Assembly: GCA_021203045.1 (NCBI GenBank) | Contig: JAJQBY010000009.1 | Coordinates: 1-44,173, forward strand | Direction: 5' to 3' | DNA from: Oscillospiraceae bacterium | GTDB lineage: Bacteria; Bacillota; Clostridia; Oscillospirales; Oscillospiraceae | DNA: 44,173 bases | Shown here: piece after piece, positions 2,280 to 16,709 of the stretch | Numbering within the stretch: position 1 is the first letter of the stretch | Layout of the letters: every line of letters starts with the position of its first letter | Position numbers and translations under genes: made by a program | Notes under the pieces: generated by a model | What the model saw: the letters and a program-made list of their open reading frames with translations, nothing else | The model's database searches: none | Told to the model about the DNA's origin: nothing

Positions 2280-2387
2280 AAGCGGGAGCGGCTGTAAATT
2301 TCTTAAATTATTTAACAGTTTGTTCAACATAAACAGTCCTATATGGTTTATTCTTATACCAAAGAAATAAAGGTATAAGGTGATCGC

Positions 2388-2798
2388 ATGAGATTTAGAC
2401 AAAAGATGGAACAGTTCATGTATGGCCGTTATGGACAGGATGATTTTTCCCGGTTCCTGATGATCGCGGCGCTTGTGCTGTTTGTGCTGGCCCTTATATT
2501 CAATGGGTATGTGGGGACGGCATTCTATGTCGTAGCGCTGGCCGCCCTGGTATACGATATGGTGCGCATCATGTCCCGAAACGTATACAAGTGCCAGCAG
2601 GAAAATCAGTGGTATCTGAAGAAAAAACAGGCGGTAACGGGTTGGTTCCGCTCCCTGAAGGACCGCTGGCAGCAGCGGAAGGAATACCGCTTCTTTCGCT
2701 GCCCCTCCTGCCACACGCTACTGCGGGTGCCGAGAGGGAAGGGAAAGATTCTGATAACGTGCCGGAAGTGCGGCCGTCGTTTTGAAAGGAAAACATGA
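2388..2798 (+). CDS. Small membrane protein with C-terminal zinc ribbon
   Basis: A 136-residue protein of unknown function. Residues about 24-60 form two closely spaced hydrophobic segments ([15 protein letters not shown] and [15 protein letters not shown]), so it is an inner-membrane hairpin. A basic linker follows, then a zinc ribbon with CPSC and CRKC knuckles near the C-terminus, a short rubredoxin-like knuckle pair as in many clostridial membrane proteins. The start is preceded by AAGGTG 5 bases upstream. The stop overlaps the start of the next gene (ATGA), so it is translationally coupled to the J-domain gene. A stem (TTATACC/GGTATAA, 2354-2378) ends exactly at the ribosome site and may affect initiation. 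Specific role unknown; the pairing suggests a membrane-located folding or assembly function. Confidence 0.75.
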
Positions 2799-3325
2799 AT
2801 CCATATGATGTTTTAGGCGTGAAGCCGGATGCCTCTGATGAGGAGATCGCAAAGGCGTATAAGCGCCTGGCAAAAAAATACCACCCGGATCTAAACCCCA
2901 ACAATGCGCAGGCCGCGGAGAAAATGGGGCAGATCAACCGCGCCTATGACGAGATTAAAAACCTGCGGGCGAACGGGGAAACGGCCCAGAGCAGCTCTGC
3001 CCATACCCGAACAGCCTATGGCGGCCAGCGGGCCGCCTATGAGAGCGGCGGCTACAGTGGCAGCGCTTCCGGTTCCGGCAGCGGCGGCAATGGCGGCTAT
3101 GAGGACCCGTTCGACTTCTTCTTTACGGGCCATTACTCCTCCTCCGGCCGTCGGGGGAACAGCCCCATCGCCGTTATTCTGGCTGTTATGGTCACGATCT
3201 TTCTGGTGCGCTTCATTCTGAGCCTCCTGTTCGGCGGCATGGGCGGCTCCTACTATGTGAACTATCAGAACGATTCGCCCAACGGCTATGTGGTGCCGGG
3301 GTATGGATATTATCAGGTAGACTGA
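2795..3325 (+). CDS. Membrane-anchored J-domain (DnaJ-like) protein
   Basis: A 176-residue protein with an N-terminal J domain (residues about 1-65) including the HPD tripeptide (KKYHPDLNP) that stimulates Hsp70 ATPase. A long Gly/Ser/Tyr-rich linker follows, then one strongly hydrophobic segment ([20 protein letters not shown], about residues 125-147), and a Tyr/Gly/Asn-rich tail. It lacks the zinc-finger and substrate-binding domains of true DnaJ, so it is a type C J-protein that probably brings DnaK to a membrane partner. The start overlaps the preceding stop (ATGA), so both proteins are probably made together; the partner may be the upstream zinc-ribbon membrane protein. The J-domain call is firm, the client unknown. 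Confidence 0.85.
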
Positions 3326-3337
3326 AGCAAGACATGG

Positions 3338-3372
3338 AAAACGCACCGCGGGATGCCCGGCGGTGCGTTTTT
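3338..3372. terminator. Bidirectional terminator between convergent genes
   Basis: AAAACGCACCGC-GGG pairs with CCCGGCGGTGCGTTTT (one bulged base, ATG loop), with T-tracts on both strands. It serves the J-domain gene from the left and the ferredoxin gene from the right. Confidence 0.85.
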
Positions 3373-3564
3373 TCAGTTTTCCTGCCTGATGATGGCCTTC
3401 ATGGGGCATTTTTCGGCGCAGAGGCCGCAGCGGGTGCAGTAGGCCTGACGTATTTTGAAGGGCGGCGCGCCGCCGGAGATACAGCCCTCCCGGCATACGC
3501 GGGTGCAGGTGCCGCAGGCAACGCAGCGCTCTGTGATGTAATAGGACACGGGGGATGGGGTCAT
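3373..3564 (-). CDS. Small 2[4Fe-4S] ferredoxin-like protein
   Basis: A 63-residue protein with two ferredoxin cysteine motifs: CVACGTCTRVC and CTRCGLCAEKCP (C-x2-C-x2-C-x3-C type), predicted to bind two [4Fe-4S] clusters and act as a low-potential electron carrier in the cytoplasm. The start at 3564 is chosen because AGGAGGTG lies 6 bases upstream; a further in-frame ATG at 3600 has no such site. The chain between the two clusters is a little longer than in classical clostridial ferredoxin. It is monocistronic with its own divergent promoter. A partner enzyme is not evident nearby. Confidence 0.85.
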   Translation of the reverse strand: MTPSPVSYYITERCVACGTCTRVCREGCISGGAPPFKIRQAYCTRCGLCAEKCPMKAIIRQEN

Positions 3565-3599
3565 GAGAGACACCTCCTGAGAGAAAGTCGTATGGGTCA

Positions 3600-3628
3600 A
3601 GTATATTCTTTCCGGGGAAAATTGTAAA
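3600..3628 (-). promoter_or_regulatory. Promoter of the small ferredoxin gene
   Basis: On the minus strand, TTTACA (3628-3623) and TATACT (3605-3600) are separated by 17 bp, about 35 bp ahead of the start codon. It lies back to back with the hslO promoter. Confidence 0.65.
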
Positions 3629-3639
3629 GCAAAACAGGT

Positions 3640-3668
3640 TTGACAACCGCAGCCGCAGGCGATAGAAT
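3640..3668 (+). promoter_or_regulatory. Promoter of hslO
   Basis: A consensus -35 TTGACA (3640-3645) and -10 TAGAAT (3663-3668) have a 17-bp spacer, 33 bp upstream of the hslO start. Confidence 0.75.
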
Positions 3669-3701
3669 ATGGCGAGAAGCTATCAATGAGAGGTGTTTTC
3701 T

Positions 3702-4571
3702 ATGGACAGGATCATTCGGGCGACAGCCGGAGACGAATATATAAAAATGTCGGTCATCGACGCCAGAGACACGGTGCAGCGGGCCAGGGAGATACACGAC
3801 TGCACGCCTACGGCGGCGGCCGTTCTGGGACGGACGCTGTGCGCCGCGTCCCTTTTGGGCAATATGATGAAGGAGGATAACGGCAGTGTTACCGTCCGTG
3901 TGAATGGCGGCGGCCCTGCCGGGACGGTCATCGCTGTTTCTGACAGTCAGGGCAATGTCCGCGGATATATGGACGCCCCTGCCGTCAGCCTGCCCCTGCG
4001 GCAGGATGGAAAGCTGGATGTTGGCGGCGCAGTGGGCCGGGATGGGATGCTCACCGTCAGCCGGGATATCGGACTGCGGGAACCATATGTGGGCTCCACC
4101 GCTCTTGTCAGCGGAGAGATCGCGGAGGATCTCACGGCCTATCTTATGGAGAGCGAGCAGGTGCCGTCTGCCTGCGGCCTGGGAGTGCTGGTGGACAGGG
4201 ATACTTCCATTAAGGCTGCAGGGGGCTTCATCGTCCAGCTCATGCCGGGGGCGGATGAAAAGCTCATCGATCTGCTTGAGGAGAATATTTTCATGATGGA
4301 CCAGCTGACCACCATCCTGGATGAGGACGGCGCGGAAGCGGTGTTCAACCAGGTTCTGAAGGGCCTGGACCACCAGATCGTCAGCCGGGAGCCCATCGCC
4401 TACCGCTGCGGATGCAGCCGGGAGCGGCTGACAGAGGTTCTCTCCTGCGTAGACCATGCCGAGCTGGAGGACATGATCGTCCAGGGCAGGGACACGGAGA
4501 TTCGCTGCGATTTCTGCGGAAAGCAATACATCTTCACCCCGGAGGACATCCGGGGGATGATGGAAGCGTAA
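3702..4571 (+). CDS. hslO: Hsp33 redox-regulated chaperone
   Basis: Hsp33 is a cytosolic holdase that is switched on by oxidation: four C-terminal cysteines hold zinc when reduced and form disulfides under oxidative stress. Here the cysteines are visible as YRCGCSRE (CxC) and IRCDFCGKQY (CxxC) in the last ~55 residues. The N-terminal domain carries the typical VNGGGPAGTVIAVSD and GNVRGYMDAP segments. At 289 residues it has normal family length. ATG 3702 is chosen because GAGAGG lies 8 bases upstream; a GTG at 3693 overlaps that site. It is preceded by a good promoter and followed by a terminator, so it is a single-gene unit. In this presumed anaerobe it would protect against oxygen exposure. 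Confidence 0.95.
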   Translation: MDRIIRATAGDEYIKMSVIDARDTVQRAREIHDCTPTAAAVLGRTLCAASLLGNMMKEDNGSVTVRVNGGGPAGTVIAVSDSQGNVRGYMDAPAVSLPLRQDGKLDVGGAVGRDGMLTVSRDIGLREPYVGSTALVSGEIAEDLTAYLMESEQVPSACGLGVLVDRDTSIKAAGGFIVQLMPGADEKLIDLLEENIFMMDQLTTILDEDGAEAVFNQVLKGLDHQIVSREPIAYRCGCSRERLTEVLSCVDHAELEDMIVQGRDTEIRCDFCGKQYIFTPEDIRGMMEA

Positions 4572-4593
4572 AGCAAACACAGTATAACACAAG

Positions 4594-4629
4594 ACGCACA
4601 CGACCCAACAGGGCCGCGTGCGTTTTTTC
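4594..4629 (+). terminator. Intrinsic terminator after hslO
   Basis: ACGCACACGACCC pairs with GGGCCGCGTGCGT (two A-C mismatches) followed by TTTTTTC. Its right arm and T-tract (4615-4640) recur at 5741-5765 inside the lipoprotein duplication junction. Confidence 0.75.
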
Positions 4630-4651
4630 TTTCGAAAAAATAAAGAAAATC

Positions 4652-4694
4652 TTAAGGAAACGAACACCATTTGGATAAAAGAGGGCGGTACAAT
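4652..4694 (+). promoter_or_regulatory. Probable activated promoter of the lipoprotein/ABC operon
   Basis: A -10-like TACAAT lies at 4689-4694 without a good -35 at 17 bp. A TTAAGG box at 4652-4657 sits upstream, preceded by AAGAAAAT. The same AAGAAAAT ... TTAAGG pairing precedes the second beta-helix gene (11671-11693). This could be a site for the OmpR-type regulator encoded at 10915, but the match is short. Confidence 0.3.
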
Positions 4695-4748
4695 AAAAAT
4701 TGGGAAGGCATATGAGAGGCAGTGTGTGGGGGAAAGGAGCTTACTATA

Positions 4749-5708
4749 GTGAAACGAGTTGTGATTATCCTGCTGGCGGCGCTTTTGCTGGCAGCTGTGA
4801 CGGGATGCCAACGGGAAACAGAGGCGCAGACGAGTATCAGCATTACCGCTGCGGACGAGGCGGCGGAAGCAGAGGAGATGCCGACTGTATACAACGTGGT
4901 TCTCCGCCGGGATGAGGACGCGCTGTTGCAAATGGCGGAGGACCTTATCACATCCCAGTATGAGGAGTACACCATAGAAAATGAGGACTATGATTGGACA
5001 ATATGGGATGACGGGGACTGGATCGCCTATCTTAGCTGTGATGATTTCTGGACGGTCGGCTATGAAAGTGAATATGCCTATGGTGCAGAGGATATAGAGT
5101 GGGAATATTCGACGGTCTATGGCTATATTACAGAGATAATCCCCAACGGCTTGGAGTTTACGGCAGCAGACGCAGGGGAAATGCTATGTGATTTTTTGGA
5201 ACGATATACGAGCGTATTTACATTTCAGACCTACCGTGTGCTGGCCTTAAATCAGGAGGACAAGACGCAGCCTGGATGTTACGATGTCTATGCGCAGGCT
5301 GTGTATAAGGGCGTGCCGCTCGTGCTTACCGCTAATAGCGGCGAAAATTATATCAGTGCCAACGCCGCCGTCGGAACAAACGGAGTGATGAGCCTGGACG
5401 GCACATTTCTGCTGCGGGAGGTTAGCCGGGTGGAGGTGGATGTTGTCAGTCAGGAGACGGTACAAGAGCATCTGCTGGAAAACTATGCAGCCATCACCGG
5501 GGCGGCAGCGGTGGTCATTGATTCCATTGAGCTGGAATACTTCGTGGACACAGAGGACGACGGCTATTACTCAATGTTCCCCGTGTGGGCCTTTTCCGGG
5601 ACGCTCACCTTCGCAAACGACGATGGCACCACCTATTTAATGCAGGCGTCCATTCTCTATTATGCGGACACAGGGACGCTGTGCGATGTCTACTATCCGG
5701 GGCTGTGA
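4749..5708 (+). CDS. Lipoprotein of the ABC module (copy A)
   Basis: A 319-residue protein with a lipoprotein signal peptide: basic start VKRVVI, hydrophobic core, and lipobox AVTGC (Cys about residue 20), so it should be lipid-anchored on the outer face of the membrane. The rest is acidic and rich in Tyr, Asp and Glu; I do not recognise a named domain. GTG 4749 is taken as start because AAAGGAG lies 9 bases upstream; ATG 4722 would place extra residues before the signal peptide and lacks a ribosome site. The first ~73 and last ~100 residues are nearly identical to copy B, while residues about 74-122 are strongly diverged and the next ~100 moderately so. It heads an operon of a second lipoprotein, three membrane subunits and an ATPase, suggesting a ligand-binding or immunity lipoprotein comparable in position to LanI. 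Confidence 0.8.
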   Translation: MKRVVIILLAALLLAAVTGCQRETEAQTSISITAADEAAEAEEMPTVYNVVLRRDEDALLQMAEDLITSQYEEYTIENEDYDWTIWDDGDWIAYLSCDDFWTVGYESEYAYGAEDIEWEYSTVYGYITEIIPNGLEFTAADAGEMLCDFLERYTSVFTFQTYRVLALNQEDKTQPGCYDVYAQAVYKGVPLVLTANSGENYISANAAVGTNGVMSLDGTFLLREVSRVEVDVVSQETVQEHLLENYAAITGAAAVVIDSIELEYFVDTEDDGYYSMFPVWAFSGTLTFANDDGTTYLMQASILYYADTGTLCDVYYPGL

Positions 5709-5711
5709 GCG

Positions 5712-5735
5712 ATGAGAAGAACCTATTTGTTGCAT
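5712..5735 (+). pseudogene. Remnant of a permease gene start at the duplication junction
   Basis: ATGAGAAGAACCTATTTG followed by TTG matches the first eight codons of the permease gene at 6762 (MRRTHLL) with a few substitutions, in the same position after the lipoprotein stop codon. After 5735 it loses similarity and runs into the copied hslO terminator arm. It has no plausible function and marks where the duplication joined. In principle it could start a fused longer reading frame into copy B, but it has no ribosome site. Confidence 0.75.
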
Positions 5736-5792
5736 GAAAGCGCGTGCGTTTTTCTTTCGAAAAAATTGTGTGGGGGAAAGGAGCTTACTATA

Positions 5793-6758
5793 GTGAAACG
5801 AGTTGTGATTATCCTGCTGGCGGCGTTTTTGCTGGCAGCTGTGACGGGATGCCAGCGGGAAACAGAGGCGCAGACGAGTATCAGCATTACCGCTGCGGAC
5901 GCCGCGGCGGAAGCAGAGGAGACGCCGACTGTATACAACGTGATTCTCCGTCGGGATGAGGACGCGCTGTTGCAGATGGCGGAGAACCTTATCATTTCCC
6001 GGTATGAGGAGTACGTTTATGACGATGAGGTGTTCCAGCAGTGGCAGGTGCAAACAGGAGAGAAATTGGTGGCATCCTTAGATTGTAGCAGTGACTGGAT
6101 GGTGAGCTACACTGATTATGAAAATGATTGCAACGGAACGCATATGGAAGATGATTATATGATTACATATGGATATATAACAGATACAATACCTAATGGC
6201 TTGGATTTCACAGCAGAGGAAGCTGGGGAGCAGCTCTGCAATTTTCTTGAGCAGTATGTCAGTGTATTTACCTTTCAGACCTATCGTGTTTTAGCCGAAA
6301 ATCAAGAGGATGAGACACAGCCCGGATATTATTCTGCTTTTGCTCAGGCGCTGTATAAAGGTATTCCTCTTGTTCTGGATGCCAATAGCGGGGAAAACCA
6401 TATATGGGCATATGCCAATATCGGCCCTAACGGTATATTCAGTTTGGACGGCACATTTCTGCTGCGGGAGGTTAGCCGGGTGGAGGTGGATGTTGTCAGT
6501 CAGGAGACGGTACGGGAGCATTTGCTGGAAAACTATGCAGCCATTACCGGGGCGTCAGACGTAGACATTGATTCCATTGAGCTGGAATATTTTGTGGACA
6601 CAGAGGACGACGGCTATTACTCCATGTTCCCCGTGTGGGCCTTCTCCGGGACGCTCACCTTCGCAAACGACGATGGCACCACCTATTCGATGCAGGCGTC
6701 CATTCTCTATTATGCAGATACGGGGACGCTGTGTGATGTCTATTATCCGGGACCGTGA
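5793..6758 (+). CDS. Lipoprotein of the ABC module (copy B)
   Basis: A 321-residue paralogue of copy A with the same GTG start, AAAGGAG ribosome site and lipobox AVTGC. An in-frame ATG at 5712 is the permease remnant and is rejected as start because it would put 27 extra residues before the signal peptide. The first ~73 residues differ from copy A at only a handful of positions and the last ~100 (from SLDGTFLLREV) are almost unchanged, but residues about 74-122 have different sequence (YVYDDEVFQQWQ against YTIENEDYDWTI) and small length changes. Copy B has no promoter of its own since the duplicated upstream region is deleted, so it should be transcribed from the copy A promoter. The permease start lies 3 bp after its stop. 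Ligand unknown. Confidence 0.8.
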   Translation: MKRVVIILLAAFLLAAVTGCQRETEAQTSISITAADAAAEAEETPTVYNVILRRDEDALLQMAENLIISRYEEYVYDDEVFQQWQVQTGEKLVASLDCSSDWMVSYTDYENDCNGTHMEDDYMITYGYITDTIPNGLDFTAEEAGEQLCNFLEQYVSVFTFQTYRVLAENQEDETQPGYYSAFAQALYKGIPLVLDANSGENHIWAYANIGPNGIFSLDGTFLLREVSRVEVDVVSQETVREHLLENYAAITGASDVDIDSIELEYFVDTEDDGYYSMFPVWAFSGTLTFANDDGTTYSMQASILYYADTGTLCDVYYPGP

Positions 6759-6761
6759 GCA

Positions 6762-7529
6762 ATGAGAAGAACCCATTTGCTGAAAAGTGATTTCATCCGC
6801 CTGACTCATCGCTGGCAGTTTTATGCAGCGTTTCTGGCAGGGCTGGTTTTGATTTTGCATCCGCTGACGGATTACTGGCCCTATCGGGCGGGCTACAGCG
6901 CCATGCAGCTTCTCTCTGGGCCATTGGCGGCCAGCGATTTCACGCCCTTTGCAGCCATCTTTTGCGTGCTCCCCTTCGGCGAGAGCTTCTGCGAGGACTT
7001 GAACTCCGGATACATCTCCAGCATCACCCAGCGAACAGGCGTGAAGCAATACGCCTGGAAGCGGTGCCTTTCCACGGCGATCTCCGGCGGTATGGTGGCC
7101 GCGGCGATCATGCTGGCGACGATACTCATATGTGTTGCAGGCACCGGACAGCCGGACACGGAGGAAACGGTGTCTTTTATGAGCAACGGCCCCTGGGCCA
7201 GAATGGGAATAATTTTGGTTGCAAATGGGGCTGTGCTGTATGCGCTGCGAGCATTTACGGCGTTCTTGTTTGGTATGCTGTGGGCGCTGGTGGGACTGTT
7301 GGTCTCTGTCATCATTCCAAACCGCTATGTGACCCTGGTGGCGCCCTTTGCGCTCTATCAGATTCTTTGGCTTCTTCTGGGAGAAACGGCTATCAATCCT
7401 GTCTATATGTTCCGGGGAGACAGTAATCTGATTCCATCCTTCTGGTTTCTCCTGGTATATCAGCTTTGCTGCATCCTTCTTTGCGGCGGGCTGTCCTACG
7501 CCGGCATGAAAAGGAGGCTGACGCTGTGA
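6762..7529 (+). CDS. ABC-2 type permease subunit 1
   Basis: A 255-residue polytopic membrane protein with about six hydrophobic segments (for example FYAAFLAGLVLILHPL, GGMVAAAIMLATILICVAG, FLFGMLWALVGLLVSVII, VYQLCCILLCGGLSYAG). This size and topology match membrane subunits of ABC exporters of the LanE/LanG or BcrB kind. It begins 3 bp after lipoprotein B and its stop overlaps the next start (GTGA), indicating translational coupling. No solute-binding fold or substrate motif is visible. The role as an ABC subunit rests on topology and on the ATPase at 9067. Confidence 0.75.
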   Translation: MRRTHLLKSDFIRLTHRWQFYAAFLAGLVLILHPLTDYWPYRAGYSAMQLLSGPLAASDFTPFAAIFCVLPFGESFCEDLNSGYISSITQRTGVKQYAWKRCLSTAISGGMVAAAIMLATILICVAGTGQPDTEETVSFMSNGPWARMGIILVANGAVLYALRAFTAFLFGMLWALVGLLVSVIIPNRYVTLVAPFALYQILWLLLGETAINPVYMFRGDSNLIPSFWFLLVYQLCCILLCGGLSYAGMKRRLTL

Positions 7530-8383
7530 GAGAGGTGCTGACAGTTGTGGCTCACAAGCTGCAATCATGGCAGACAGACCTGCGGGTCATTGCAGCTTTC
7601 CTGCTTGGTATCGCCCTGTGCATCGGCCCGGTGTCCCGTTATATGGCCTTTGCCAATGTGCTGGGCTCCTCGGTGCAGATTTTTGAACCGTTTATTTATA
7701 TGGGCTCTACCGTGTCTATGTTTACGCAGGTATGGCTGGGCGTACTGCTGATGATGTCGGATGCGCCGTTTTTGCGGGAGCGCTCCCCCTATGAAATACT
7801 GCGTGTCGGGAAAAAGCGCTGGATAAGCGCCAGTATTCTTTACGTCATAGTCGGCTGCCTGCTGTATATGCTGGCAATGCTTCTGGTTACGATGCTGCTG
7901 GCCCTTGCTGCGGGCAGCGTGGATTTTTCTAACCAATGGAGCGATGCCATGATAACACTGGCGGAAAAGCAGCCGGATTTTGCGGTGGTGACCTACAGCA
8001 TCAAATTCGCATATCCCGAATTCATCAGCGCCGTCCGGCCTTGGGGCGCATTGCTGCAAACATTGTTATACAACGGTCTTTACCTGATTGCCATAAGCCT
8101 GTGCATCTTTGCGGTCAACCTGTGGAGCGGTCTGAGTCTTGGCTGGCTGGCCGCTGCCGCCGTCCACATCGTGGGATACGTCGTCTACGCCAACGGAGCG
8201 ATGTTTTTCCCGCAGAAGCTTTCGCTTTTGAGCTGCGCCATTCCGGCCTATCACTATGCGGAGGGCTATGGGATAACCAGCCTTTACGCAGCGAGTGTGC
8301 TGGGAGGAGCTGTATTGGCGCTGATCTGGCTGTCCAAACGGGCTTACAGACATCTGGAGCCGTTTCAGAAATGCGGCGTATGA
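7526..8383 (+). CDS. ABC-2 type permease subunit 2
   Basis: A 285-residue membrane protein with about six hydrophobic segments (LRVIAAFLLGIALCIGPV, ILYVIVGCLLYMLAMLLVTMLLALAAG, LLYNGLYLIAISLCIFAVNLWSG split by polar turns, LGGAVLALIWLS). GTG 7526 is the start: AGGAGG lies 8 bases upstream and the codon overlaps the preceding TGA. An upstream in-frame ATG at 7466 lies in the previous gene without a ribosome site. The larger loop between the second and third membrane pairs (about residues 135-175) would face outside or inside depending on topology and may contact the lipoproteins. Called as an ABC membrane subunit from context. Confidence 0.75.
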   Translation: MREVLTVVAHKLQSWQTDLRVIAAFLLGIALCIGPVSRYMAFANVLGSSVQIFEPFIYMGSTVSMFTQVWLGVLLMMSDAPFLRERSPYEILRVGKKRWISASILYVIVGCLLYMLAMLLVTMLLALAAGSVDFSNQWSDAMITLAEKQPDFAVVTYSIKFAYPEFISAVRPWGALLQTLLYNGLYLIAISLCIFAVNLWSGLSLGWLAAAAVHIVGYVVYANGAMFFPQKLSLLSCAIPAYHYAEGYGITSLYAASVLGGAVLALIWLSKRAYRHLEPFQKCGV

Positions 8384-9066
8384 AGGGACGCTTTGCCCTG
8401 ACTGCTGCGGAGCGGGCGGCGATAACGGGCTTTTACATAGTGGTGCTGGTTCTCTTTGTGTTTTGGGACGATGGAGCCGTTTTTCGGGGAGTAGAACCGG
8501 CGGTCATATCCGGCGAGATAGACTACCGGGCCATGTCCCGATGGCTGCTGATGATGACAGCGCCACTCCTGGCAGATGGGTATCTGCTGCTCCGCTCGCA
8601 TCAGATCAGGCTATTTGCCTGCCTGCGGCTGGGAGGCCTGCCCCGGTGGAACGGGCATCAGCTTCTTTTGTGCCTTGGAAACACTCTGTTTTGGGGCCTG
8701 CTGCGCCTGGGAGTGCTGCTGCTGATGACGACCGCGCCGGAAGCGCTGAAAATGGCAGTGCTGTTGGGATTAAACGATGTCCTTTGGCTGCTGCTGATGA
8801 TGGCATTTTACATTCTGACGAAGGGCGCCAGCGCCTTTGGCCTGCTGGAGATATTCTCCATGGGCGGGACGTTTTTATTGGGAGAGTTTGCGCCGAATAT
8901 TCGCCGGTGGATGCCGTGTACCTGGAGTATGCTGTGCCGGACGAAGGGCTTTTTTCAGGATGGTGGAAGTATTATCTCCTATGCTGTCATGAGCGGCGGC
9001 ATGGCCCTGCTTTTGCTGGGGTTGTTTTATGTACTGATACGCTTAGATCGATATAAGGAGCTGTGA
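8371..9066 (+). CDS. ABC-2 type permease subunit 3
   Basis: A 231-residue membrane protein with about six hydrophobic stretches (ITGFYIVVLVLFVFW, WLLMMTAPLLADGYLLL, LFWGLLRLGVLLLMT, LLGLNDVLWLLLMMAFYIL, SYAVMSGGMALLLLGLFYVL). Two starts are possible: ATG 8371, with GGAG 11 bases upstream, or ATG 8380, whose ATGA overlaps the preceding stop; the difference is only three residues. It is the third and shortest membrane subunit. Three separate permease polypeptides for one ATPase is more than LanE+LanG, so either two form the channel and one is accessory, or all three assemble together. Confidence 0.7.
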   Translation: MRRMKGRFALTAAERAAITGFYIVVLVLFVFWDDGAVFRGVEPAVISGEIDYRAMSRWLLMMTAPLLADGYLLLRSHQIRLFACLRLGGLPRWNGHQLLLCLGNTLFWGLLRLGVLLLMTTAPEALKMAVLLGLNDVLWLLLMMAFYILTKGASAFGLLEIFSMGGTFLLGEFAPNIRRWMPCTWSMLCRTKGFFQDGGSIISYAVMSGGMALLLLGLFYVLIRLDRYKEL

Positions 9067-9702
9067 ATGATGAGTATGATCGAAATGGATAAGGTTGGGA
9101 AACAGTTTAAAGATACCTGGGTTCTGCAGGACATTACCATGTCTGTTGAAGCAGGCAGCATTTGCGGCCTTGTGGGCCGCAACGGTTCGGGAAAGACTAT
9201 GATCATGAAGCTGATAGCCGGGATGGCCGCGCCCACAGTGGGCAGTATCTCGGTGGAGGGAAAGCGGCTGGGGACGGACACAGACATTCCCGATTCCCTG
9301 GGAGCCATTATAGAGGTTCCGGGCTTTCTTGGGAACATGAGCGGATTTCACAATCTGCAATATCTGGCCTCACTGAGAAAACAGATAGACGATGCCGCCA
9401 TCCGCCGGACTATGGAGCAGGTAGGTCTTGACCCGAACGATAAAAAGCGGGTGGGAAAATATTCTCTTGGTATGCGCCAGCGCCTTGGCATTGCCCAGGC
9501 TATCATGGAGCAGCCCCGCATACTCCTTCTGGACGAGCCCATGAACGGCCTGGACAACCAGGGCGTACAGGATATCCGGGCTCTGATGAAGGAGCTGAGG
9601 GATCAGGGGAAGGCCATCCTTCTGGCCAGCCACCACCGGGAGGACATAGACCAACTGTGTGACCGGGTTTATACGCTGGACGGAGGACGGATGGTTTCGT
9701 AA
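9067..9702 (+). CDS. ABC transporter ATP-binding protein
   Basis: A 211-residue ATPase that powers the three membrane subunits. Walker A is GRNGSGKT (residues 37-44), the signature is YSLGMRQRLGIAQA, Walker B is ILLLDEPMNGLD, and the H-loop histidine lies in LLASHHREDID. The LGMRQRLGIA form of the signature is typical of the BcrA/LanF drug and lantibiotic exporter branch. It is short for the family (often 230-300) because it ends soon after the H-loop. AAGGAG lies 6 bases upstream, and the start follows the permease stop directly. It is the last gene of the operon; its stop is 10 bp from the convergent kinase stop with no evident terminator between them. Confidence 0.92.
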   Translation: MMSMIEMDKVGKQFKDTWVLQDITMSVEAGSICGLVGRNGSGKTMIMKLIAGMAAPTVGSISVEGKRLGTDTDIPDSLGAIIEVPGFLGNMSGFHNLQYLASLRKQIDDAAIRRTMEQVGLDPNDKKRVGKYSLGMRQRLGIAQAIMEQPRILLLDEPMNGLDNQGVQDIRALMKELRDQGKAILLASHHREDIDQLCDRVYTLDGGRMVS

Positions 9703-9712
9703 TAGGCCTATA

Positions 9713-10918
9713 TTACAGCTCCACCACAAAGCAGTTTTTCCCATCCCGGTATTCCAGCTTTATGGAGCCGTGCATGGAGGATACGATTTCCTGGGCGATG
9801 GAAAGGCCCAGGCCAGCGCCGTGGCGGGTGCTGTCGATCTGATAGAAGGGCTTGAAAATGCTGTCCCGCACCTCCCGGGGAATCTCCCGGCCGGTGCTGG
9901 CCACAGTGAAGGTGACGCGGCGGCTGCCGGAGGGGGCCGCCGTTATTTTTATGCCGCCGTCCGGGGCGCAGTATTTCAGCGCGTTTTCCACAAGCACGTC
10001 GATGACCCGCGTCACCTGGGTTTCATCGCCCCTGACGGTCAGGCCGGGGGCGCAGTCCACCTCCAGAGCCAGCTTCTGGTCAAAGGCCATGACCTCAAAG
10101 CGCAGGGCTTCCTGCTCCAAAAGCTGGGAAAAATCCACCTCAGTATTTTCATTTTTGCTCCGGCTGCCGGGCAGAGCCAGCCACAGCATAGCCCCCACCA
10201 GGCCGCTCATGCGGTCGCATTCGTGGCGGATGTTGTCACAGCAGAATTCATAGTTGGGGTCGCTGATGTCCTCCACCTCGGATAGAAGATCCATATTGGT
10301 GGTGATGATGGAAATGGGCGTTTTTAGCTCATGGGAGGCGGAAGAGATGAATCGGCGCTGATCCTCCATGGCGTCCTTGGCAGGCTTGGCAAACCACCAG
10401 GACAGCAGCAACGACAGAAGAAACAACACGCCCAGGCTGGGAATGACGAACAAAACAATGTGCAGCAGGAGGCTATTCAGCTCGTTGGTGATATAGTCAA
10501 TGTCGATAAATGAAATGCGGTGGGTGCCGCTTTCCCGGACGCCGTTGTAGTAGCGGACGTTGTAGTCGCTTAAAACGCCGGTTTCCTCCACCTGGGTGGA
10601 CATGATGTCCATGAGCGATTCCGCCGTCAGGCCCTGGTCGGCCAGGAAAAAATCCCCCAGGGTAATCTCCGCCTCCACGCCATAATCCGTAATTTCCAGC
10701 ACGAAATAGGGGGGATAGGAGGCAAATTCCTCTTCCGCCGGGCGCACATCTGAGGTGTTTGCATAGTTGTTGATGTTCAGTAGATATACCATGCAGTCCC
10801 GTTCCAGCTCGGCCCTGTGTTCATAGTATATAACGGCTCCCAGGGCCACGGCGAACACCAGCATGGAAATCATAAACACAGCGACGAATTTCACCCGCAG
10901 CTTTTTTGTTACGCTCAT
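9713..10918 (-). CDS. Sensor histidine kinase
   Basis: A 401-residue membrane kinase. Membrane segment 1 spans about residues 12-33 and segment 2 about 147-172, enclosing an extracytoplasmic sensor domain of ~110 residues with no recognised fold. The HisKA box FISSASHELKTP has its phospho-acceptor at His ~196. ATPase motifs follow: N box VLVENALKYC, and G boxes EVRDSIFKPFYQ and GAGLGLSIAQEIV. There is no obvious HAMP domain; the second membrane segment leads straight to HisKA. Its start overlaps the stop of the response regulator gene. It presumably senses an envelope signal and phosphorylates that regulator. The adjacent convergent ABC operon suggests it controls that operon, as in peptide-antibiotic response systems. 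Confidence 0.92.
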   Translation of the reverse strand: MSVTKKLRVKFVAVFMISMLVFAVALGAVIYYEHRAELERDCMVYLLNINNYANTSDVRPAEEEFASYPPYFVLEITDYGVEAEITLGDFFLADQGLTAESLMDIMSTQVEETGVLSDYNVRYYNGVRESGTHRISFIDIDYITNELNSLLLHIVLFVIPSLGVLFLLSLLLSWWFAKPAKDAMEDQRRFISSASHELKTPISIITTNMDLLSEVEDISDPNYEFCCDNIRHECDRMSGLVGAMLWLALPGSRSKNENTEVDFSQLLEQEALRFEVMAFDQKLALEVDCAPGLTVRGDETQVTRVIDVLVENALKYCAPDGGIKITAAPSGSRRVTFTVASTGREIPREVRDSIFKPFYQIDSTRHGAGLGLSIAQEIVSSMHGSIKLEYRDGKNCFVVEL

Positions 10919-11598
10919 GGCGTCGATTCCTCCATGGACAGACAGTAGCCGATTCGCCGGAGACTGGCAATGCGTAAATCAGACTGCACAAAGGCCAGCT
11001 TTTTCCGCAGAAAGCTCATGTATGCCTCGACTACGTTGCTTTTCGCCCCGCTGTCGATACCCCATACGTTAGAAAACAGTGTTTCACAACTGACGGGTTG
11101 TCCTTCCTTTTGCATGAGCAGACGCAGCACATCCCGCTCTTTTTTGTTGAGCATGACGGACTTGTCCCCTTTGGAGAGCTTGCCGCTGTCCGTGTCCAGC
11201 ACAATGTCTCCATAGGAAAGCTGGGAGGAGCTGATCTCCTTGGGCCGGCGCAGCAGGGCCCGGAGACAGGCCAGTAGCTCCCCGGAGGAGAAGGGCTTTG
11301 CCAGATAATAGTCCGCTCCCTTGTCCAATCCTTCGATGCGGTCCTCCACGTCCGACCGGGCGGACAGCATCAATATGGGGAGTTGAAGACCCCGCCGGCG
11401 CACTGCTTCCAGCACCTGATAGCCGTTCAGCCGGGGGAGCATGATATCCAGTATCACCAGATCATAGGTGCCGGTAAGGGCATAATCCAGGCCCATCTCT
11501 CCGTCAAAGGCGATATCTGCGGAATAGCCGTGCTTCACCAGCAGATTCCGGATCGTGCGGGCCATCCGCTCCTCGTCCTCGATGATCAATATGCGCAT
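10915..11598 (-). CDS. OmpR/PhoB-family response regulator
   Basis: A 227-residue DNA-binding regulator. The receiver domain (residues 1-~118) has the acidic pair in IIEDEE, phospho-acceptor Asp51 in VILDIMLP, and the conserved Lys in YYLAKPFSSGELLA. The C-terminal winged-helix domain has LNKKERDVLRLLMQ and the typical VVEAYMSFLRKKL recognition helix. ATG 11598 is preferred to GTG 11607 because the purine-rich GGGGTGG site sits just before it. It is first in a two-gene unit with the kinase and divergent from the second beta-helix gene, so a regulator of both the ABC operon and the beta-helix protein is plausible. Confidence 0.93.
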   Translation of the reverse strand: MRILIIEDEERMARTIRNLLVKHGYSADIAFDGEMGLDYALTGTYDLVILDIMLPRLNGYQVLEAVRRRGLQLPILMLSARSDVEDRIEGLDKGADYYLAKPFSSGELLACLRALLRRPKEISSSQLSYGDIVLDTDSGKLSKGDKSVMLNKKERDVLRLLMQKEGQPVSCETLFSNVWGIDSGAKSNVVEAYMSFLRKKLAFVQSDLRIASLRRIGYCLSMEESTP

Positions 11599-11629
11599 AC
11601 GTACCACCCCTTTTCTTGGCCTTACAATA

Positions 11630-11657
11630 ACAATACCATGATTTGTTTTTTCGGCAA
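11630..11657 (-). promoter_or_regulatory. Possible promoter of the two-component genes
   Basis: On the minus strand, TTGCCG (11657-11652) and TATTGT (11635-11630) are 16 bp apart, about 30 bp before the regulator start. The TATTGT is immediately repeated. Match to consensus is moderate. Confidence 0.35.
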
Positions 11658-11774
11658 CTTGAAATCAAAAAAGAAAATTTTCCCGTTTTAAGGTTTTTTT
11701 CAGCTTCGCCTGCTATGCTGAAAGCAGTTCCATGTCAGCTAAATGACAAATTTGATTTTTAGGAGGAACAATCC

Positions 11775-13934
11775 ATGAAGCAACTGCGCAAAGCATTGGC
11801 CCTGCTGATGGCCTTATGCCTGATGCTCAGCCTGAGCATGACAGCCTTCGCGTCTGACGAGGCGTCCGGCGAAGCGTCTGCCTCCGGTGAGGCGTCGTCC
11901 GCCTCCGGCGAAGCGTCCGGCGAGGTGGAAGTGGACACCACGCCTCTGACTACCCTTGTGGTGGATGGCGTGGAGATGGACTACGAGGAAGGGGACGAGA
12001 TTCCCGAGGGTGGCGTTCTTGTCACCACCGAGCGGTTTACCGTCGGTAGCTACACCAGCGCCTACCGTACCGCCCTGTATGTGGATGAGGACGGCGTCAA
12101 CGAGGATCGCAGCGTCACTGAGGCCATCGTGGACGGCGAATATGACGACGAGGGCCTGACCGGCGGTTCCATCACCTCCGAGGGCGAGAATTTCAACGGC
12201 GTCATCATAACCGGCGGCTCCTACACCATCACAGACACCACGTTCAACCTGACCGGCAACGGCGGCAACGACTTCCAGGGCTTCGGCGCGGCCATCTTCG
12301 CCGCCGGGGACGCGGAGGTGACAATCGACAACGTGACCATTGAAAACAGCGGCGTAGTGCGTACGTCTCTGGTCATCGACGGCACCGCTAAGGTTCTGAT
12401 TAAAAACTCCACCTTTGCCACCCACGATGGTGTGGAAGCGGAGGACTATGCAGGCACCTCCGATGTGGGCAAGATGCTCTCTGTTCCCTGGGTGCTGGGC
12501 CTGGACGGCAACGCCCGCGGCACCAACCAACTGACCAACGGCAGCTCCACCTACTATAACAGCACAATTATGGCGGAAAAGTGGGGTGTTCTGAGCTTTG
12601 ATGGCAGCTCTACCAGCTCAAACCTGATTTTCATCAACAGCACGGCGGCCATCACCGGCGGCTTGACCGTTGACCTGGAGGAAGGAGCCACTGAGGAACA
12701 GATCGAGAACTTTGATTTCTATGAGGATGACTACAAGGACGATGTTGTCACCACCAGCGATGGTCATCCCTCTGGCTATGGCACGCTGATCATCGGCGAT
12801 ATGCTGGGCGTGTTTGCCGGCTCCACGATATACACTCCCACCTATGCCTGCATTCTGGCCAACGAGGGCCCCACGGTCGTCTATACCAGCAGCTCCGAGG
12901 AGAGCCTGACCAGCATCGTATCCACCCTGGAGAGCGCGAACAGCGCCTTCCTGAAGGACAACGAGGGCTATGAGATTTATGCCCTGGAAGAAGTCCTGGC
13001 TGAGGAGGGCTATGAGGCCCAGAACACAGTGGTCTATTCCGAGCGCATCGGCATCATGGCTTATGACGATATGCGCGCCTCCAACTATGATTCTGTCGGC
13101 ACCATCATCATCAACGAGGGTACCGAGTTCTACACCGGCAGCTCCACCATGGTCATCAAGGGCTATCCTGTGAACATCTATGTGGACGACGCCACCCTGG
13201 TCTCCGGCAGCAATGTGATTCTGCAGGTCACTGACTGCGACGACCCCGGACAGGGCACAGACGATCGGGTGAGCGGCAATGTGTTCAATATAAACTTTGA
13301 AGAGCTGACAATTAATAACGAGGACACCCGCGAGCGCACCCGTACCCTGGAGGAGATGAACGATCTGGCCACCTCCACCAGCAAGAGCGACGGCGATCAC
13401 CTTGTTACCGCCACCTTCTCCAACATGGAGGAGCTGACCGGCGATATGTATAACTCCTCCGGCAGCAACACCGCCTATAACAACAGCGCGGCCATCATGA
13501 ATATGTATGTCATCCTGGACAACATCGGCACCTACACCGGCACCATCTCCGCCTCCCACGCCTATCACAGCAATTACACTTATACCTATGTGAACGACGA
13601 CGGTGAGGAGATCGGCGTGATCGCTTCCCCTGACTGGTGGGACGAGTACGCGGATGAGGACTGGTTCGAGGAGAACGGCTGGGATGAGACCGACGTGAGC
13701 TGGCACTATCTGCTGTCCGACTTCACGGACGTGGCCTGCGAGGCTGTGGACAACGGCGTTATCGTTGAACTGACCAACGGCACCACCTGGGATGTCACCG
13801 GCGAGAGCTATCTGACCATGCTCATCGTGGGCGAGGACTGCGTCATCAACGGCACCATGACCGTGGACGGCGTGGAGACTGAGATCATCCCCGGCACCAC
13901 CTACGAGGGCGACATCGTTATTATCCCCGCTTGA
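11775..13934 (+). CDS. Secreted SGEAS-motif beta-helix-like protein (copy 2)
   Basis: A 719-residue exported paralogue of the protein at 175. Signal peptide MKQLRKALALLMALCLMLSL... ends at AFA; the mature start is SDEASGEASASGEASSASGEASGE, longer than in copy 1, but copy 2 has no C-terminal SGEAS block. The body shows beta-helix features: repeated GGSYTITDTTFNLTG-like and NVTIENSGVVR-like turns, PWVLGLDGNARGTN, and the C-terminal WDVTGESYLTMLIVGE motif shared with copy 1. No LPXTG or membrane anchor is present. TAGGAGG precedes the start by 8 bases. It lies divergent from the response regulator; a TTAAGG box at 11688 and -10-like TATGCT at 11714 may form its promoter. Function unknown; surface structure or adhesion is possible. 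Confidence 0.85.
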   Translation: MKQLRKALALLMALCLMLSLSMTAFASDEASGEASASGEASSASGEASGEVEVDTTPLTTLVVDGVEMDYEEGDEIPEGGVLVTTERFTVGSYTSAYRTALYVDEDGVNEDRSVTEAIVDGEYDDEGLTGGSITSEGENFNGVIITGGSYTITDTTFNLTGNGGNDFQGFGAAIFAAGDAEVTIDNVTIENSGVVRTSLVIDGTAKVLIKNSTFATHDGVEAEDYAGTSDVGKMLSVPWVLGLDGNARGTNQLTNGSSTYYNSTIMAEKWGVLSFDGSSTSSNLIFINSTAAITGGLTVDLEEGATEEQIENFDFYEDDYKDDVVTTSDGHPSGYGTLIIGDMLGVFAGSTIYTPTYACILANEGPTVVYTSSSEESLTSIVSTLESANSAFLKDNEGYEIYALEEVLAEEGYEAQNTVVYSERIGIMAYDDMRASNYDSVGTIIINEGTEFYTGSSTMVIKGYPVNIYVDDATLVSGSNVILQVTDCDDPGQGTDDRVSGNVFNINFEELTINNEDTRERTRTLEEMNDLATSTSKSDGDHLVTATFSNMEELTGDMYNSSGSNTAYNNSAAIMNMYVILDNIGTYTGTISASHAYHSNYTYTYVNDDGEEIGVIASPDWWDEYADEDWFEENGWDETDVSWHYLLSDFTDVACEAVDNGVIVELTNGTTWDVTGESYLTMLIVGEDCVINGTMTVDGVETEIIPGTTYEGDIVIIPA

Positions 13935-13978
13935 GTCGGCTTACCCTGATTTGCCTTCATACGTTTCTCTATATTGTT

Positions 13979-14026
13979 CCTTTCACGTTGCGGGGAGCCG
14001 TTAAGTAGCTCCTCGCAATAGAAAGG
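13979..14026. repeat. Long hairpin element 1
   Basis: CCTTTC-ACG-TTGCGGGGAGC ... GCTCCTCGCAA-TA-GAAAGG folds into an 11-bp stem (one G-U) with a 9-base loop, extended by a second 6-bp stem. It stands 45 bp after the beta-helix stop. No T-tract follows, so it may be a processing or stability element or a weak terminator. It begins with the same TTCCTTTCA-GTTGCGG sequence as element 2. Confidence 0.6.
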
Positions 14027-14095
14027 GACTCGGACTTGGGGTTTCTATTTATTGTAGTTTCATAAATTTCTTCATATTTTTCAATTCCTTTCATG

Positions 14096-14125
14096 TTGCG
14101 GAGGGCCTTCACCGGCCCTCCGCAA
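14096..14125. repeat. Hairpin element 2 in the flavoenzyme leader
   Basis: TTGCGGAGGGCC pairs perfectly with GGCCCTCCGCAA (12 bp) around TTCACC. It lies 13 bp upstream of the AAAGGAG ribosome site of the next gene, and is preceded by ATTCCTTTCATG like element 1. Without a T-tract it is probably not a simple terminator. Confidence 0.6.
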
Positions 14126-14154
14126 TGTGGAAAAAGACCAAAGGAGCGGCAAAC

Positions 14155-16071
14155 ATGAAACCATATTCCCATGTATTTTCTCCCATCCGGGTGGCGGGGT
14201 CAGTGCTGAAAAACCGCATCATCTCTGCGCCCAGCACCATACATACCTCCTCCAGCGGCCAGCCCTATCCCACCGAGGAGGCTATCCGCTTTTTTGAACG
14301 CCGTGCCGCTGCCGGGGCGGGACTTGTCACCTGCGCCGGGGCCAGCATCGGCGGCAGTCATGACGACGGCAAGCACTGCTCTTGGGACCTGAAGGTTCCG
14401 AATCACACGAACCGGCTGTGCGACCTGGCCGGACGTATTCATCTCTATGGGGCCAAATGCACTATGGAGCTTATCGGCATCTTCCCGGACGGCTATACCG
14501 TATCCGACGGCTGCTCTATCATGGGCGACCCGGTCATGGGCCGGGAGATACCGAAGGACAAGATGGAATGGTTCAAAAATGAATATATCGAAGCAGCCCT
14601 GACCCTCAAGGCGTCGGGCTTCGATGGGGTCATGCTCCATTTCGGGCACTCCATCCCCATCGCTCAGTTTCTGTCTCCCTATACGAACAAGCGCACCGAT
14701 GAGTATGGCGGCTCCACGGAAAACCGCTGCCGCTATCCCGTGGAAATATTGAAGGGTATTCGTGAGGCCGTCGGCCCGGATTTCATCATCGACGTGCGTA
14801 TGTCTGGCACGGAATTCCAGCAGGGTGGCATCGACTTGGATGAGGGCCTGCGAATCGCCCAGCAGTTCCAGCCCTACTGCGACATCATCCAGGCCAGTGC
14901 CGGTATGCACAATCCCGACTGGATGACCTGGACCCATCCCTGCGGCTTTCTGCCCCCGAATCCCAACGTGTTTATTGCCGAGCATTTCAAAAAGAGCGGC
15001 TGTCTGGACCAGTGCTTTGTTTCCACCATCGGCGGTATCACCAGCCTGGACGACTGCGAGGACATACTTTCCCAGGGCAAGGCGGATTTTGTCGTTGTGG
15101 CCCGGGAGTTCATCGCCGACCCGGAATGGATACACAAGGCCGTGGCCGGGAAGCAAGAGGATGTGGTGCCCTGCATCAAGTGCATGCGCTGCCTGGACTC
15201 CGATAACAACAGCCAATATATGCTGTGTGCGGTGAATCCCCGCTTCAATCAGGAGGAGGCCGTGGCGAAGATTCCCGCTCCGGCGGTGAAGAAAAAGGTA
15301 GCAGTGATCGGCGGCGGTCCTGCCGGTATGTATGCGGCCCTGGAATGCGATAAGCTGGGCCACAGCGTCACGCTGTTTGAGAAGCAGGCCCACCTGGGCG
15401 GACTTCTGGAATATGCCGACCACGTCAGCTTCAAGTGGCCCCTGGCGAATTTCAAAAACTGGCTCATCGCTCAGCTTGAAAAGAGCAACGTAACGGTTCG
15501 TCTGAACACGGAGGCTACTCCGGAGATGGTAGAAGGCTTCGATGGTATCATCGCCGCCCTCGGTTCCCAGCCGGTGATACCGAAATTCATCCCCGGCACG
15601 GAAAACGCCCGTACCGCCGTGTCCGCCTATGGACACGAGGACGAGCTGGGCCGCAGGACCGTCATCATCGGCGGCGGGCAGGTGGGCCTGGAGACAGCGG
15701 TCCATCTTCAGCGCCTGGGGTTGGATGTGACCCTGCTGGAGATGCTGCCCCAGCTTGCGGGGGACGCCAGCAAGTGCCACCGGGATGAGCTGATGGTGGA
15801 GGTGCGCGATCATGCCGACCACATCCATGTGCTGACCGGGGCGAAATGCACCGGCATCGAGCCCGGCCTTGTCCGCTATGAGCGGGAAGGGGAGGCGGCG
15901 GCCATCAAAACGGACAGCGTGCTGCTGGCTGTGGGCCTGCGGCCGCAGCGGGAACGGGCGGATGCCTTTATGCACATGGCGGACAGCTTCTTTGAAATCG
16001 GAGACTGCGTGAAGGCCCGCACTGTGGAATGGTGCACCCGGGAGGGTCTGGCCGCAGCGCTGAATATATAA
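14155..16071 (+). CDS. NADH:flavin oxidoreductase / 2-enoate reductase family protein
   Basis: A 638-residue FMN/FAD/iron-sulfur enzyme of the 2,4-dienoyl-CoA reductase, 2-enoate reductase and BaiCD/BaiH group, which reduces or oxidises C=C bonds next to a carbonyl. Residues about 1-340 form the OYE-like barrel (FLSPYTNKRTDEYGGSTENR is the family signature). CIKCMRCLD...C (about 342-363) would bind a [4Fe-4S] cluster. FAD and NAD sites follow as VIGGGPAGMYAA (~381) and VIIGGGQVGLETA (~501). Length matches the family. The usual active-site HGAHGYL is replaced by HFGHSIPI, so the proton donor may differ and the substrate cannot be named. ATG 14155 is chosen for AAAGGAG 9 bases upstream. It faces the molybdenum enzyme across a shared terminator. 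Confidence 0.88.
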   Translation: MKPYSHVFSPIRVAGSVLKNRIISAPSTIHTSSSGQPYPTEEAIRFFERRAAAGAGLVTCAGASIGGSHDDGKHCSWDLKVPNHTNRLCDLAGRIHLYGAKCTMELIGIFPDGYTVSDGCSIMGDPVMGREIPKDKMEWFKNEYIEAALTLKASGFDGVMLHFGHSIPIAQFLSPYTNKRTDEYGGSTENRCRYPVEILKGIREAVGPDFIIDVRMSGTEFQQGGIDLDEGLRIAQQFQPYCDIIQASAGMHNPDWMTWTHPCGFLPPNPNVFIAEHFKKSGCLDQCFVSTIGGITSLDDCEDILSQGKADFVVVAREFIADPEWIHKAVAGKQEDVVPCIKCMRCLDSDNNSQYMLCAVNPRFNQEEAVAKIPAPAVKKKVAVIGGGPAGMYAALECDKLGHSVTLFEKQAHLGGLLEYADHVSFKWPLANFKNWLIAQLEKSNVTVRLNTEATPEMVEGFDGIIAALGSQPVIPKFIPGTENARTAVSAYGHEDELGRRTVIIGGGQVGLETAVHLQRLGLDVTLLEMLPQLAGDASKCHRDELMVEVRDHADHIHVLTGAKCTGIEPGLVRYEREGEAAAIKTDSVLLAVGLRPQRERADAFMHMADSFFEIGDCVKARTVEWCTREGLAAALNI

Positions 16072-16141
16072 CGCAGATTTTCACTCCGCTGGGCACGTTA
16101 AGGGGTCGGGTGTAGTATGATAAACCGGCGGAATGAAAAGT

Positions 16142-16174
16142 ATCCCGCACCTGGAAATAAACCGGGTGCGGGAT
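16142..16174. terminator. Convergent terminator between flavoenzyme and ferredoxin subunit
   Basis: ATCCCGCACCTGG pairs with CCGGGTGCGGGAT (one G-U) around AAATAAA. The minus-strand exit (ACTTTTCATT) is more T-rich than the plus exit. The flanking 16072-16141 and 16175-16244 hold nothing else I recognise. Confidence 0.65.
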
Positions 16175-16244
16175 CTGTTGTCATGATAGGCTTTCAGTGT
16201 GTTTACGCTGAGCGCCGGGGGATGGCTTCCTTTGCGGCAGAGGG

Positions 16245-16709
16245 TCAGGTGAACGCGCCCTCGCTGGAGACCAGCGTAAGCGCGTCGAAGGGGCATCCCC
16301 GCACGCAGGCAGGGAGAAGGCCGGCCTTGACCCGCTCGTTGCAGCCGTCGCATTTGCCCATTTTGCCGTTGGCATCGAATACCGGCGCGCCGATAAGGCA
16401 TGCGGAGAGGCAGCTTTTGCAGCCAATGCAGTCCGTATTGTCATAGATGACGAAGCCTGTTGCAGGGTCTCTGGTGATACAGCCCTGGGGACAGGCTTTT
16501 ATGCAGAGCGCGTTCGCGCAGTGCATGCAGGCGCGGGAAAGGCAGGAGAGATGATTTTTCTCCCGACCTTCATGCTCCGTGATGATTATTTTGCGGAACA
16601 TATGGCCTTCTCCCAGCGGCTCCCAGTCGTTCTGGTCCATACAGGCCACTGCGCAGGCGCCGCAGCCGACACATCGGGAGGGCTCGAATCGGATGGTATA
16701 CCGGCTCAT
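16245..16709 (-). CDS. Four-cluster ferredoxin subunit of a molybdopterin oxidoreductase
   Basis: A 154-residue electron-transfer subunit of the DmsB/PhsB/FdhB type. Four cysteine groups are visible: CVGCGACAVAC, CLSRACMHCANALCIKAC, CIGCKSCLSAC, and CDGC...CVRGCP, as expected for four [4Fe-4S] clusters passing electrons to or from the molybdenum subunit. It is short compared with E. coli DmsB (~200), ending right after the last cluster (PFDALTLVSSEG). No signal peptide or membrane segment is present, and no DmsC/NrfD-like anchor gene is adjacent, so the complex is probably soluble and cytosolic. Its start overlaps the stop of the catalytic subunit gene. Confidence 0.92.
   Translation of the reverse strand: MSRYTIRFEPSRCVGCGACAVACMDQNDWEPLGEGHMFRKIIITEHEGREKNHLSCLSRACMHCANALCIKACPQGCITRDPATGFVIYDNTDCIGCKSCLSACLIGAPVFDANGKMGKCDGCNERVKAGLLPACVRGCPFDALTLVSSEGAFT

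Follow-up and report, generated by a model that had tools for sequence, protein, structure and literature searches.

A putative orphan immunity-type exporter operon of an uncatalogued ABC-2-like family in an Oscillospiraceae bacterium

The window analysed here, 44,173 nucleotides long, is the whole of one contig (C5, JAJQBY010000009.1) from a 2.59-Mb, 144-contig assembly of an Oscillospiraceae bacterium (G000). It contains six same-strand genes between positions 4749 and 9702 that encode, in order, two lipoproteins (lipo1 and lipo2), two permeases (perm1 and perm2), a permease-like protein (perm3) and an ATP-binding cassette (ABC) ATPase, with close packing from lipo2 onward. We consider it moderately probable that these transporter genes are a laterally acquired, orphan immunity-type exporter operon directed against a foreign secreted antimicrobial, and that they belong to an uncatalogued ABC-2-like family. 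An earlier note on this DNA, made from the sequence, had correctly listed two lipoproteins, three membrane open reading frames (ORFs), an ABC ATPase, a convergent kinase/OmpR-type pair and a divergent secreted protein, with a start coordinate (4652) that precedes the first gene.

The operon, its island and its counterpart in a second genome

In blastn comparisons within the genus (35 genomes including that of the window, 13 of them at least 90% complete), homology on the left stops just beyond hslO in five relatives, at 4563, 4572, 4574, 4574 and 4582; in G006, a more distant genome, it stops at 4426. On the right it begins again at 9710-9713, the kinase stop codon, in G001, G002, G003 and G005, so that the transporter genes lie on an island (4583-9709). 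The other 34 genomes of the genus, which include these four relatives and of which 12 are at least 90% complete, were searched for perm3 without a match. The completeness of the relatives is uneven, with G002 at 64% and the G001 contig stopping about 155 bp beyond the kinase. To the right of the island, positions 9712-16070, comprising the kinase, regulator, secreted protein and flavin oxidoreductase, match G005 and G003 at 89% nucleotide identity, and the match reaches 13087 in G001 and 11872 in G002, where their contigs stop. No transporter lies beyond the kinase in G002, G003 and G005. In all four genomes hslO and the kinase block are on separate contigs with differing 3' neighbours, which places the island at a synteny break. 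The longest direct and inverted repeats at the island borders are 8 and 7 bp.

The strong terminator of hslO sets the six genes apart from the sequence upstream, and the operon presumably has its own promoter. We infer that this promoter lies between the terminator repeat and lipo1, in a region (4642-4748) that gave no consensus match in a promoter scan and of which 81 bp (4642-4722) are absent before lipo2 in a self-comparison.

The unit is kept in a second genome. Among 400 family genomes, perm3 and lipo1 were each found in two, and these are the identical two, the second being G150, where the order lipoprotein, perm1, perm2, perm3 and ATPase is preserved at 38, 60, 42, 41 and 68% identity with a single lipoprotein. 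Directly upstream of that lipoprotein, G150 encodes a 145-amino-acid (aa) signal-peptide protein. Its 14.5-kb contig also carries AgrB, a LytTR regulator, a GHKL kinase, a MobA/VirD2-type relaxase and a protein with a helicase domain, truncated where the contig stops, and appears to be part of a conjugative element. At the order level, perm1 is present in 12 of 394 genomes at E<=1e-8, with the window genome included.

The exporter family and its lipoprotein and secreted partners

In the window ATPase an E loop (IIEVPGF) replaces the Q loop; we take this to be the motif of lantibiotic-immunity ATPases, and it is reportedly the title motif of a lantibiotic-immunity paper. The E loop is found in 44 of 49 related ATPases, the window counted; as for the two unrelated control ATPases, the position holds Q in one and is unaligned in the other. 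It does not single out LanF, as BcrA carries it too. The best NCBIfam model of the window ATPase is TIGR03740 (lantibiotic protection) at 186 bits, which is the top model in 10 of 10 ATPases scanned; BcrA likewise has a lantibiotic-protection ATPase as its best model, well under the cut-off. Another ATPase with a high TIGR03740 score is encoded on contig C27 of the window genome, with no perm1 or perm2 adjoining.

The perm1 and perm2 families are homologous by profile comparison (98.2% probability), and no Pfam or NCBIfam family matched perm1, perm2 or perm3 of the window. Pfam names none of the 28 perm1 and 22 perm2 family members scanned; NCBIfam names none of the 28 perm1 members, and for perm2 the window protein alone was scanned. 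ABC2_membrane_2 was grazed by one perm1 member at 0.001. A plasmid search gave no match to perm1, nor did viral contigs, in a search sensitive to close relatives alone. For perm3 the one clear relative is that of G150, and when the resulting two-sequence profile was run against 384 order genomes, it gave one extra match, which is marginal (7.8e-4, 44 residues, internal stops). Three consecutive permeases were also seen by eye at loci L008, L010, L036, L120 and L127. We compared perm3 with perm1, perm2 and the extra permeases of L008/L010, L036, L120 and L127, and this two-sequence profile gave no signal of kinship.

Related loci were gathered by similarity to the ATPase (L005-L037), by similarity to perm1 (L119-L129) and as plasmid matches to the ATPase (L130-L133). 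Being picked by similarity, they yield shares that are not genome-wide frequencies, and they include close kin such as L011/L013/L015/L016, L008/L010, L005/L006, L009/L017/L018 and L019/L029. Locus L037, with no ATPase match and an alignment cut off early, and the weak ATPase matches L038-L045 were left out of the locus counts. The resulting 49 related-ATPase loci, window included, have perm1 in 47, perm2 in 35 and perm3 in 2. They are mostly from Clostridia and Bacilli, with one perm1+perm2 locus (L019) on a contig labelled Bacteroidales. The exporter family commonly travels with surface lipoproteins and, at part of the loci, with a small Sec-secreted protein. A lipoprotein was called next to the operon at 23 of 35 loci with perm2 and at 0 of 14 without it, and at least two lipoproteins were present in 8 of the 23 positive loci. 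These calls, like those of the secreted genes, follow custom strict rules that missed some genes visible by eye. The earlier note had held that permeases and lipoproteins commonly found apart would count against a joint module, and here the result is divided: the window lipoprotein and perm3 occur together in their two genomes out of 400, whereas 12 of 35 distant perm1+perm2 loci have no adjacent lipoprotein by the strict rule, at least three of which (L122, L123 and L126) do carry one by eye. A second operon in the same genome (L119 3308-8813, contig C8) has two lipoproteins (44% identical), two permeases and an ATPase.

The two lipoproteins listed in the earlier note each have a lipobox and are not independent of each other, being tandem copies with 76% aa identity. 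In the self-comparison of this region, 4723-5732 aligns with 5767-6782 at 80%, and 27 bp at the hslO terminator (4615-4641) are repeated at 5741-5766; by eye, the spacer between the copies keeps the first codons of perm1. The spacer also holds a weak terminator-like hairpin (5731-5753), partly derived from the hslO terminator, which might lower downstream expression. The copies have diverged unevenly: nucleotide identity is 94% over residues 1-70, 62% over 71-200 and 88% from 201 to the end, and third-position identity for start, centre and end is 0.93, 0.44 and 0.78. Both centres are about equally distant from the G150 lipoprotein (50/144 and 54/145) and are AT-richer than the ends (GC 0.486 and 0.431 versus 0.536-0.586). 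Either the ends were held alike by gene conversion or the centres were swapped, and both fit. At another locus of the same operon type (L011 2179-6276), two tandem lipoprotein genes are 99% identical and a third matches at 27%, as if from a recent duplication.

By family, the lipoproteins of the related loci chain together through BLAST matches and reach DUF6034 (PF19499), for which we found no naming paper in the open-licence literature. The first lipoprotein of L119 matches DUF6034 over its full length (151.8 bits). In the window proteins the likeness is confined to the C-termini (E 3.1e-5 for lipo1), and at 23.5 bits for lipo1 and 20.4 for lipo2 both fall under the Pfam gathering cut-off of 27 bits. 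They join the chain weakly, through a Niallia taxi lipoprotein matching lipo1 and lipo2 at 25-27% over 161 and 109 residues.

Small secreted genes were defined as encoding 80-185 aa with a signal peptide and a ribosome site, within 1.5 kb upstream of the operon. The operon spans were set partly by eye, and of 47 spans, 40 were kept after removal of seven that had under 1.5 kb of upstream sequence. Such a gene was found in 15 of the 40 loci, compared with 3 of 269 control windows taken at those loci (Fisher p 2e-12, for loci that are not independent). None of 18 small secreted proteins reached a Pfam cut-off, the best being DUF3592 at 19.5 bits against 25.3, and several have, by eye, a G-x-W-(T/S)-P-like motif at their C-terminus. 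AgrB and/or LytTR/GHKL genes lie beside the operon at 5 of 5 loci checked (L007, L050, L121, L123 and L125), which were chosen by eye. At L012 (3614-5384), an operon relative is preceded by a tandem array of three small secreted genes that are related to one another.

Likeness to known systems and weighing of the explanations

In its design the operon is like orphan immunity exporters already described, CprABC and Nsr among them, and our best reading is that it would work like LanI/LanFEG or CprABC while falling outside both groups as they are defined. LanI/LanFEG (NisI/NisFEG) similarly combines a lipoprotein with an exporter of separate E-loop ATPase and separate permeases; the window differs in an ATPase under the family cut-off, permeases unmatched by models, three permeases and two lipoproteins. 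LanI lipoproteins bind lantibiotic peptides (PMC5786555, excerpt), and LanFEG transporters expel peptides into the medium (PMC7038271, excerpt). By analogy with LanI, the window lipoproteins would intercept, outside the membrane, an antimicrobial protein or peptide that other organisms secrete. As in LanFEG, the permeases would use energy from the E-loop ATPase to dislodge it from the membrane or from its target; tandem lipoproteins with diverged centres may widen recognition.

CprABC-K-R of C. difficile and nsrFE1E2G-XRK of S. mutans are, like the window operon, stand-alone exporters without biosynthesis genes, and a lipoprotein adjoins the Cpr exporter as it does here (PMC5786555, excerpt). 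The CprABC type has one ATPase and two six-transmembrane (TM) permeases, compared with three permease ORFs in the window. The earlier note's contention that known systems have one or two permeases is contradicted by the S. mutans system, described with three transmembrane-domain (TMD) genes, although their helices total 12 (PMC5786555, excerpt). By that description, rather than by sequence comparison, the Nsr TMD proteins have 82, 171 and 248 aa, against 255, 285 and 228 aa in the window (PMC5786555, excerpt). A further difference from Cpr and Nsr is that the window-type two-component system occurs in relatives with no exporter detected.

The single permease of BceAB is large, with 10 TM helices and a loop of about 200 aa outside the cell, and BceAB-type permeases measure 626-651 aa (PMC5786555, excerpt), whereas those of the window have 228-285 aa. 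BcrAB has a similar E-loop ATPase, the window protein being 39.6-41% identical to the plasmid BcrA entries among the matches listed, but BcrA has 308 aa with a C-terminal extension and is accompanied by one permease (BcrB) and an undecaprenyl-diphosphatase gene. Lactococcin 972 clusters share with the operon relatives a small signal-peptide protein alongside membrane proteins and an ATPase; they have a 7-TM immunity protein (PMC11161930, excerpt), and the search upstream of the window operon turned up no secreted gene of this kind. We also considered the TMcin bacteriocins (PMC12328743, excerpt) and judged them unrelated to the operon. In the open-licence literature we found no printed description of an Agr/lipoprotein/exporter bacteriocin cluster, nor any of the permease family, the lipoprotein duplication or the link to small secreted genes.

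The peptide immunity proposed earlier is supported in part, by homology and for the six transporter genes: it is consistent with the E loop, with TIGR03740 as the top model under its cut-off, and with relatives that have small secreted genes and Agr-type regulators. No bacteriocin-modification gene, as the earlier note had said, and no lanthipeptide precursor or modification gene was found when 21 ORFs of the window were compared with Pfam, a scan that left out smaller ORFs and involved no search for short precursors. The window copy is an orphan, in that no small secreted gene of the kind seen at related loci was found alongside it.

Several results weigh against an immunity function acquired laterally. 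The window ATPase, at its 186 bits, misses the TIGR03740 cut-off of 309.75, none of the 10 ATPases scanned reaches it, and sub-cut-off matches occur in 13 of 14 control genomes, making this model a weak pointer. The lantibiotic-permease NCBIfam models match neither the window permeases nor the 28 perm1 members, and perm3 shows no likeness to any known permease by Pfam, NCBIfam or profile comparison. By our rule, 25 of the 40 loci have no upstream small secreted gene and neither does the window operon. Where such proteins exist, they form no single recognisable family (among 17 compared, two pairs are clearly similar and two weakly), and none has known killing activity. Base composition does not decide the question of acquisition: GC is 0.544-0.557 in the island genes, lipoproteins excepted, 0.562-0.564 in the kinase and regulator, and 0.598 in the rest of the contig.

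The association with small secreted genes in 15 of 40 relatives, the Agr- or LytTR/GHKL-type genes at the five inspected loci and the multiple lipoproteins in 8 of 23 would also suit a transporter engaged in exporting, folding or releasing a secreted protein or lipoproteins of the operon itself, or an Agr-type signal. We regard this as rather unlikely, because both the small proteins and the lipoproteins bear Sec-type signals and should need no ABC exporter, and because the window copy still has intact ATPase motifs without an upstream small gene. The earlier note's proposal, that the kinase/regulator pair senses a peptide and turns on the transporter with the secreted protein as partner, draws on physical adjacency and on the precedent of Cpr-type operons, which couple a transporter with a two-component system (PMC5786555, excerpt). 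The idea of a single module that includes a dedicated two-component system and a beta-helix partner is not supported, since the block occurs without a detected transporter in four genus genomes, three of them with the secreted protein, and the G150 operon lies beside an Agr-type regulator; we therefore find it quite improbable and place the two-component pair outside the module. The upstream regions 4576-4752 and 11608-11776 share no motif of at least 10 bp that could be a common regulator site. The secreted protein was set aside as well, as its orthologs adjoin the regulator in G001, G003 and G005 and as 30 stretches matching it, its own counted, are spread over 22 contigs of the window genome (E<=1e-5; some partial).

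A chimeric assembly join in the 144-contig draft could also account for the operon lying next to the kinase or next to hslO. The separation of hslO from the kinase block in the four relatives agrees with this, as do the other genes that lie downstream of hslO in each of them and downstream of the kinase in G002, G003 and G005, and the mapping of G005's second gene beyond the kinase to contig C26 of the window genome. Such a join is very unlikely in our judgement, given that both borders fall at gene ends and that C26 extends about 2.9 kb beyond the mapped gene into other ORFs, as a true rearrangement would.

If the operon is indeed an acquired immunity exporter, perm1/perm2 operons would be an overlooked immunity-exporter family in Clostridia and other Bacillota, the adjoining small secreted genes would be candidate unmodified Sec-exported antimicrobials missed by known-precursor searches, and adjoining two-component genes need not belong to such operons. 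Tentatively, the window could represent the orphan immunity half of an undescribed antagonism cassette across Bacillota, sometimes carried on conjugative elements, in which an Agr-controlled Sec-secreted protein of about 130 aa is paired with a dedicated lipoprotein and an exporter of two or three permeases, and duplicated lipoproteins diversify centrally as rivals change.

Annotated features and neighbouring genes

Table 1. Features of the operon region and the adjoining genes in the window
Feature	Position	Strand	Remarks
Island without counterpart in compared genus relatives	4583..9709	.	about 5.1 kb; blastn of window 1-16500
hslO (Hsp33) terminator	4594..4628	+	strong; 13-bp stem 4594-4623, then T6 on + strand
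Putative promoter region of operon	4642..4748	+	TACAAT at 4689; self-comparison
Lipoprotein 1 (lipo1)	4749..5708	+	319 aa; lipobox LAAVTGC; remote DUF6034-like C-terminus
Lipoprotein 2 (lipo2)	5793..6758	+	321 aa; lipobox LAAVTGC; tandem copy of lipo1, centre diverged
Permease 1 (perm1)	6762..7529	+	255 aa; 4-bp overlap with perm2
Permease 2 (perm2)	7526..8383	+	285 aa; 4-bp overlap with perm3
Permease-like protein 3 (perm3)	8380..9066	+	228 aa; four hydrophobic stretches (simple scan)
ABC ATPase	9067..9702	+	211 aa; ABC_tran 5.8e-29; Walker A/B and signature intact; E loop IIEVPGF
Histidine kinase	9713..10918	-	HisKA/HATPase; 94-96% identical in G001, G002, G003, G005; adjacent, judged outside module
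OmpR-type response regulator	10915..11607	-	Pfam; adjacent, judged outside module
Secreted protein	11775..13934	+	719 aa; large paralogous family; adjacent, judged outside module
Flavin oxidoreductase	14125..16071		follows secreted protein

Between the converging ATPase and kinase genes there is a 10-bp gap, and a palindrome-like sequence, TAATAGGCCTATATTA, lies there (9700-9715). A hairpin-like sequence 3' of the kinase was seen by eye in G001, G002 and G003 and not in the window; it was not obvious in G005.

The 719-aa secreted protein, a proposed beta-helix in the earlier note, has no Pfam match, and matches to it occur in 10 of the 35 genus genomes (E<=1e-20). Secreted proteins with SGEASGEAS-type N-terminal repeats, encoded in the window at 130-2220 and 11775-13934, make up a very large family of paralogs in this genome. 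Contig C78 of the same genome (L101 5358-10671) carries another regulator/kinase pair, 57% and 50% identical to that of the window, one gene away from a paralog of the secreted family; the family may therefore be linked to this type of two-component system rather than to transporters.

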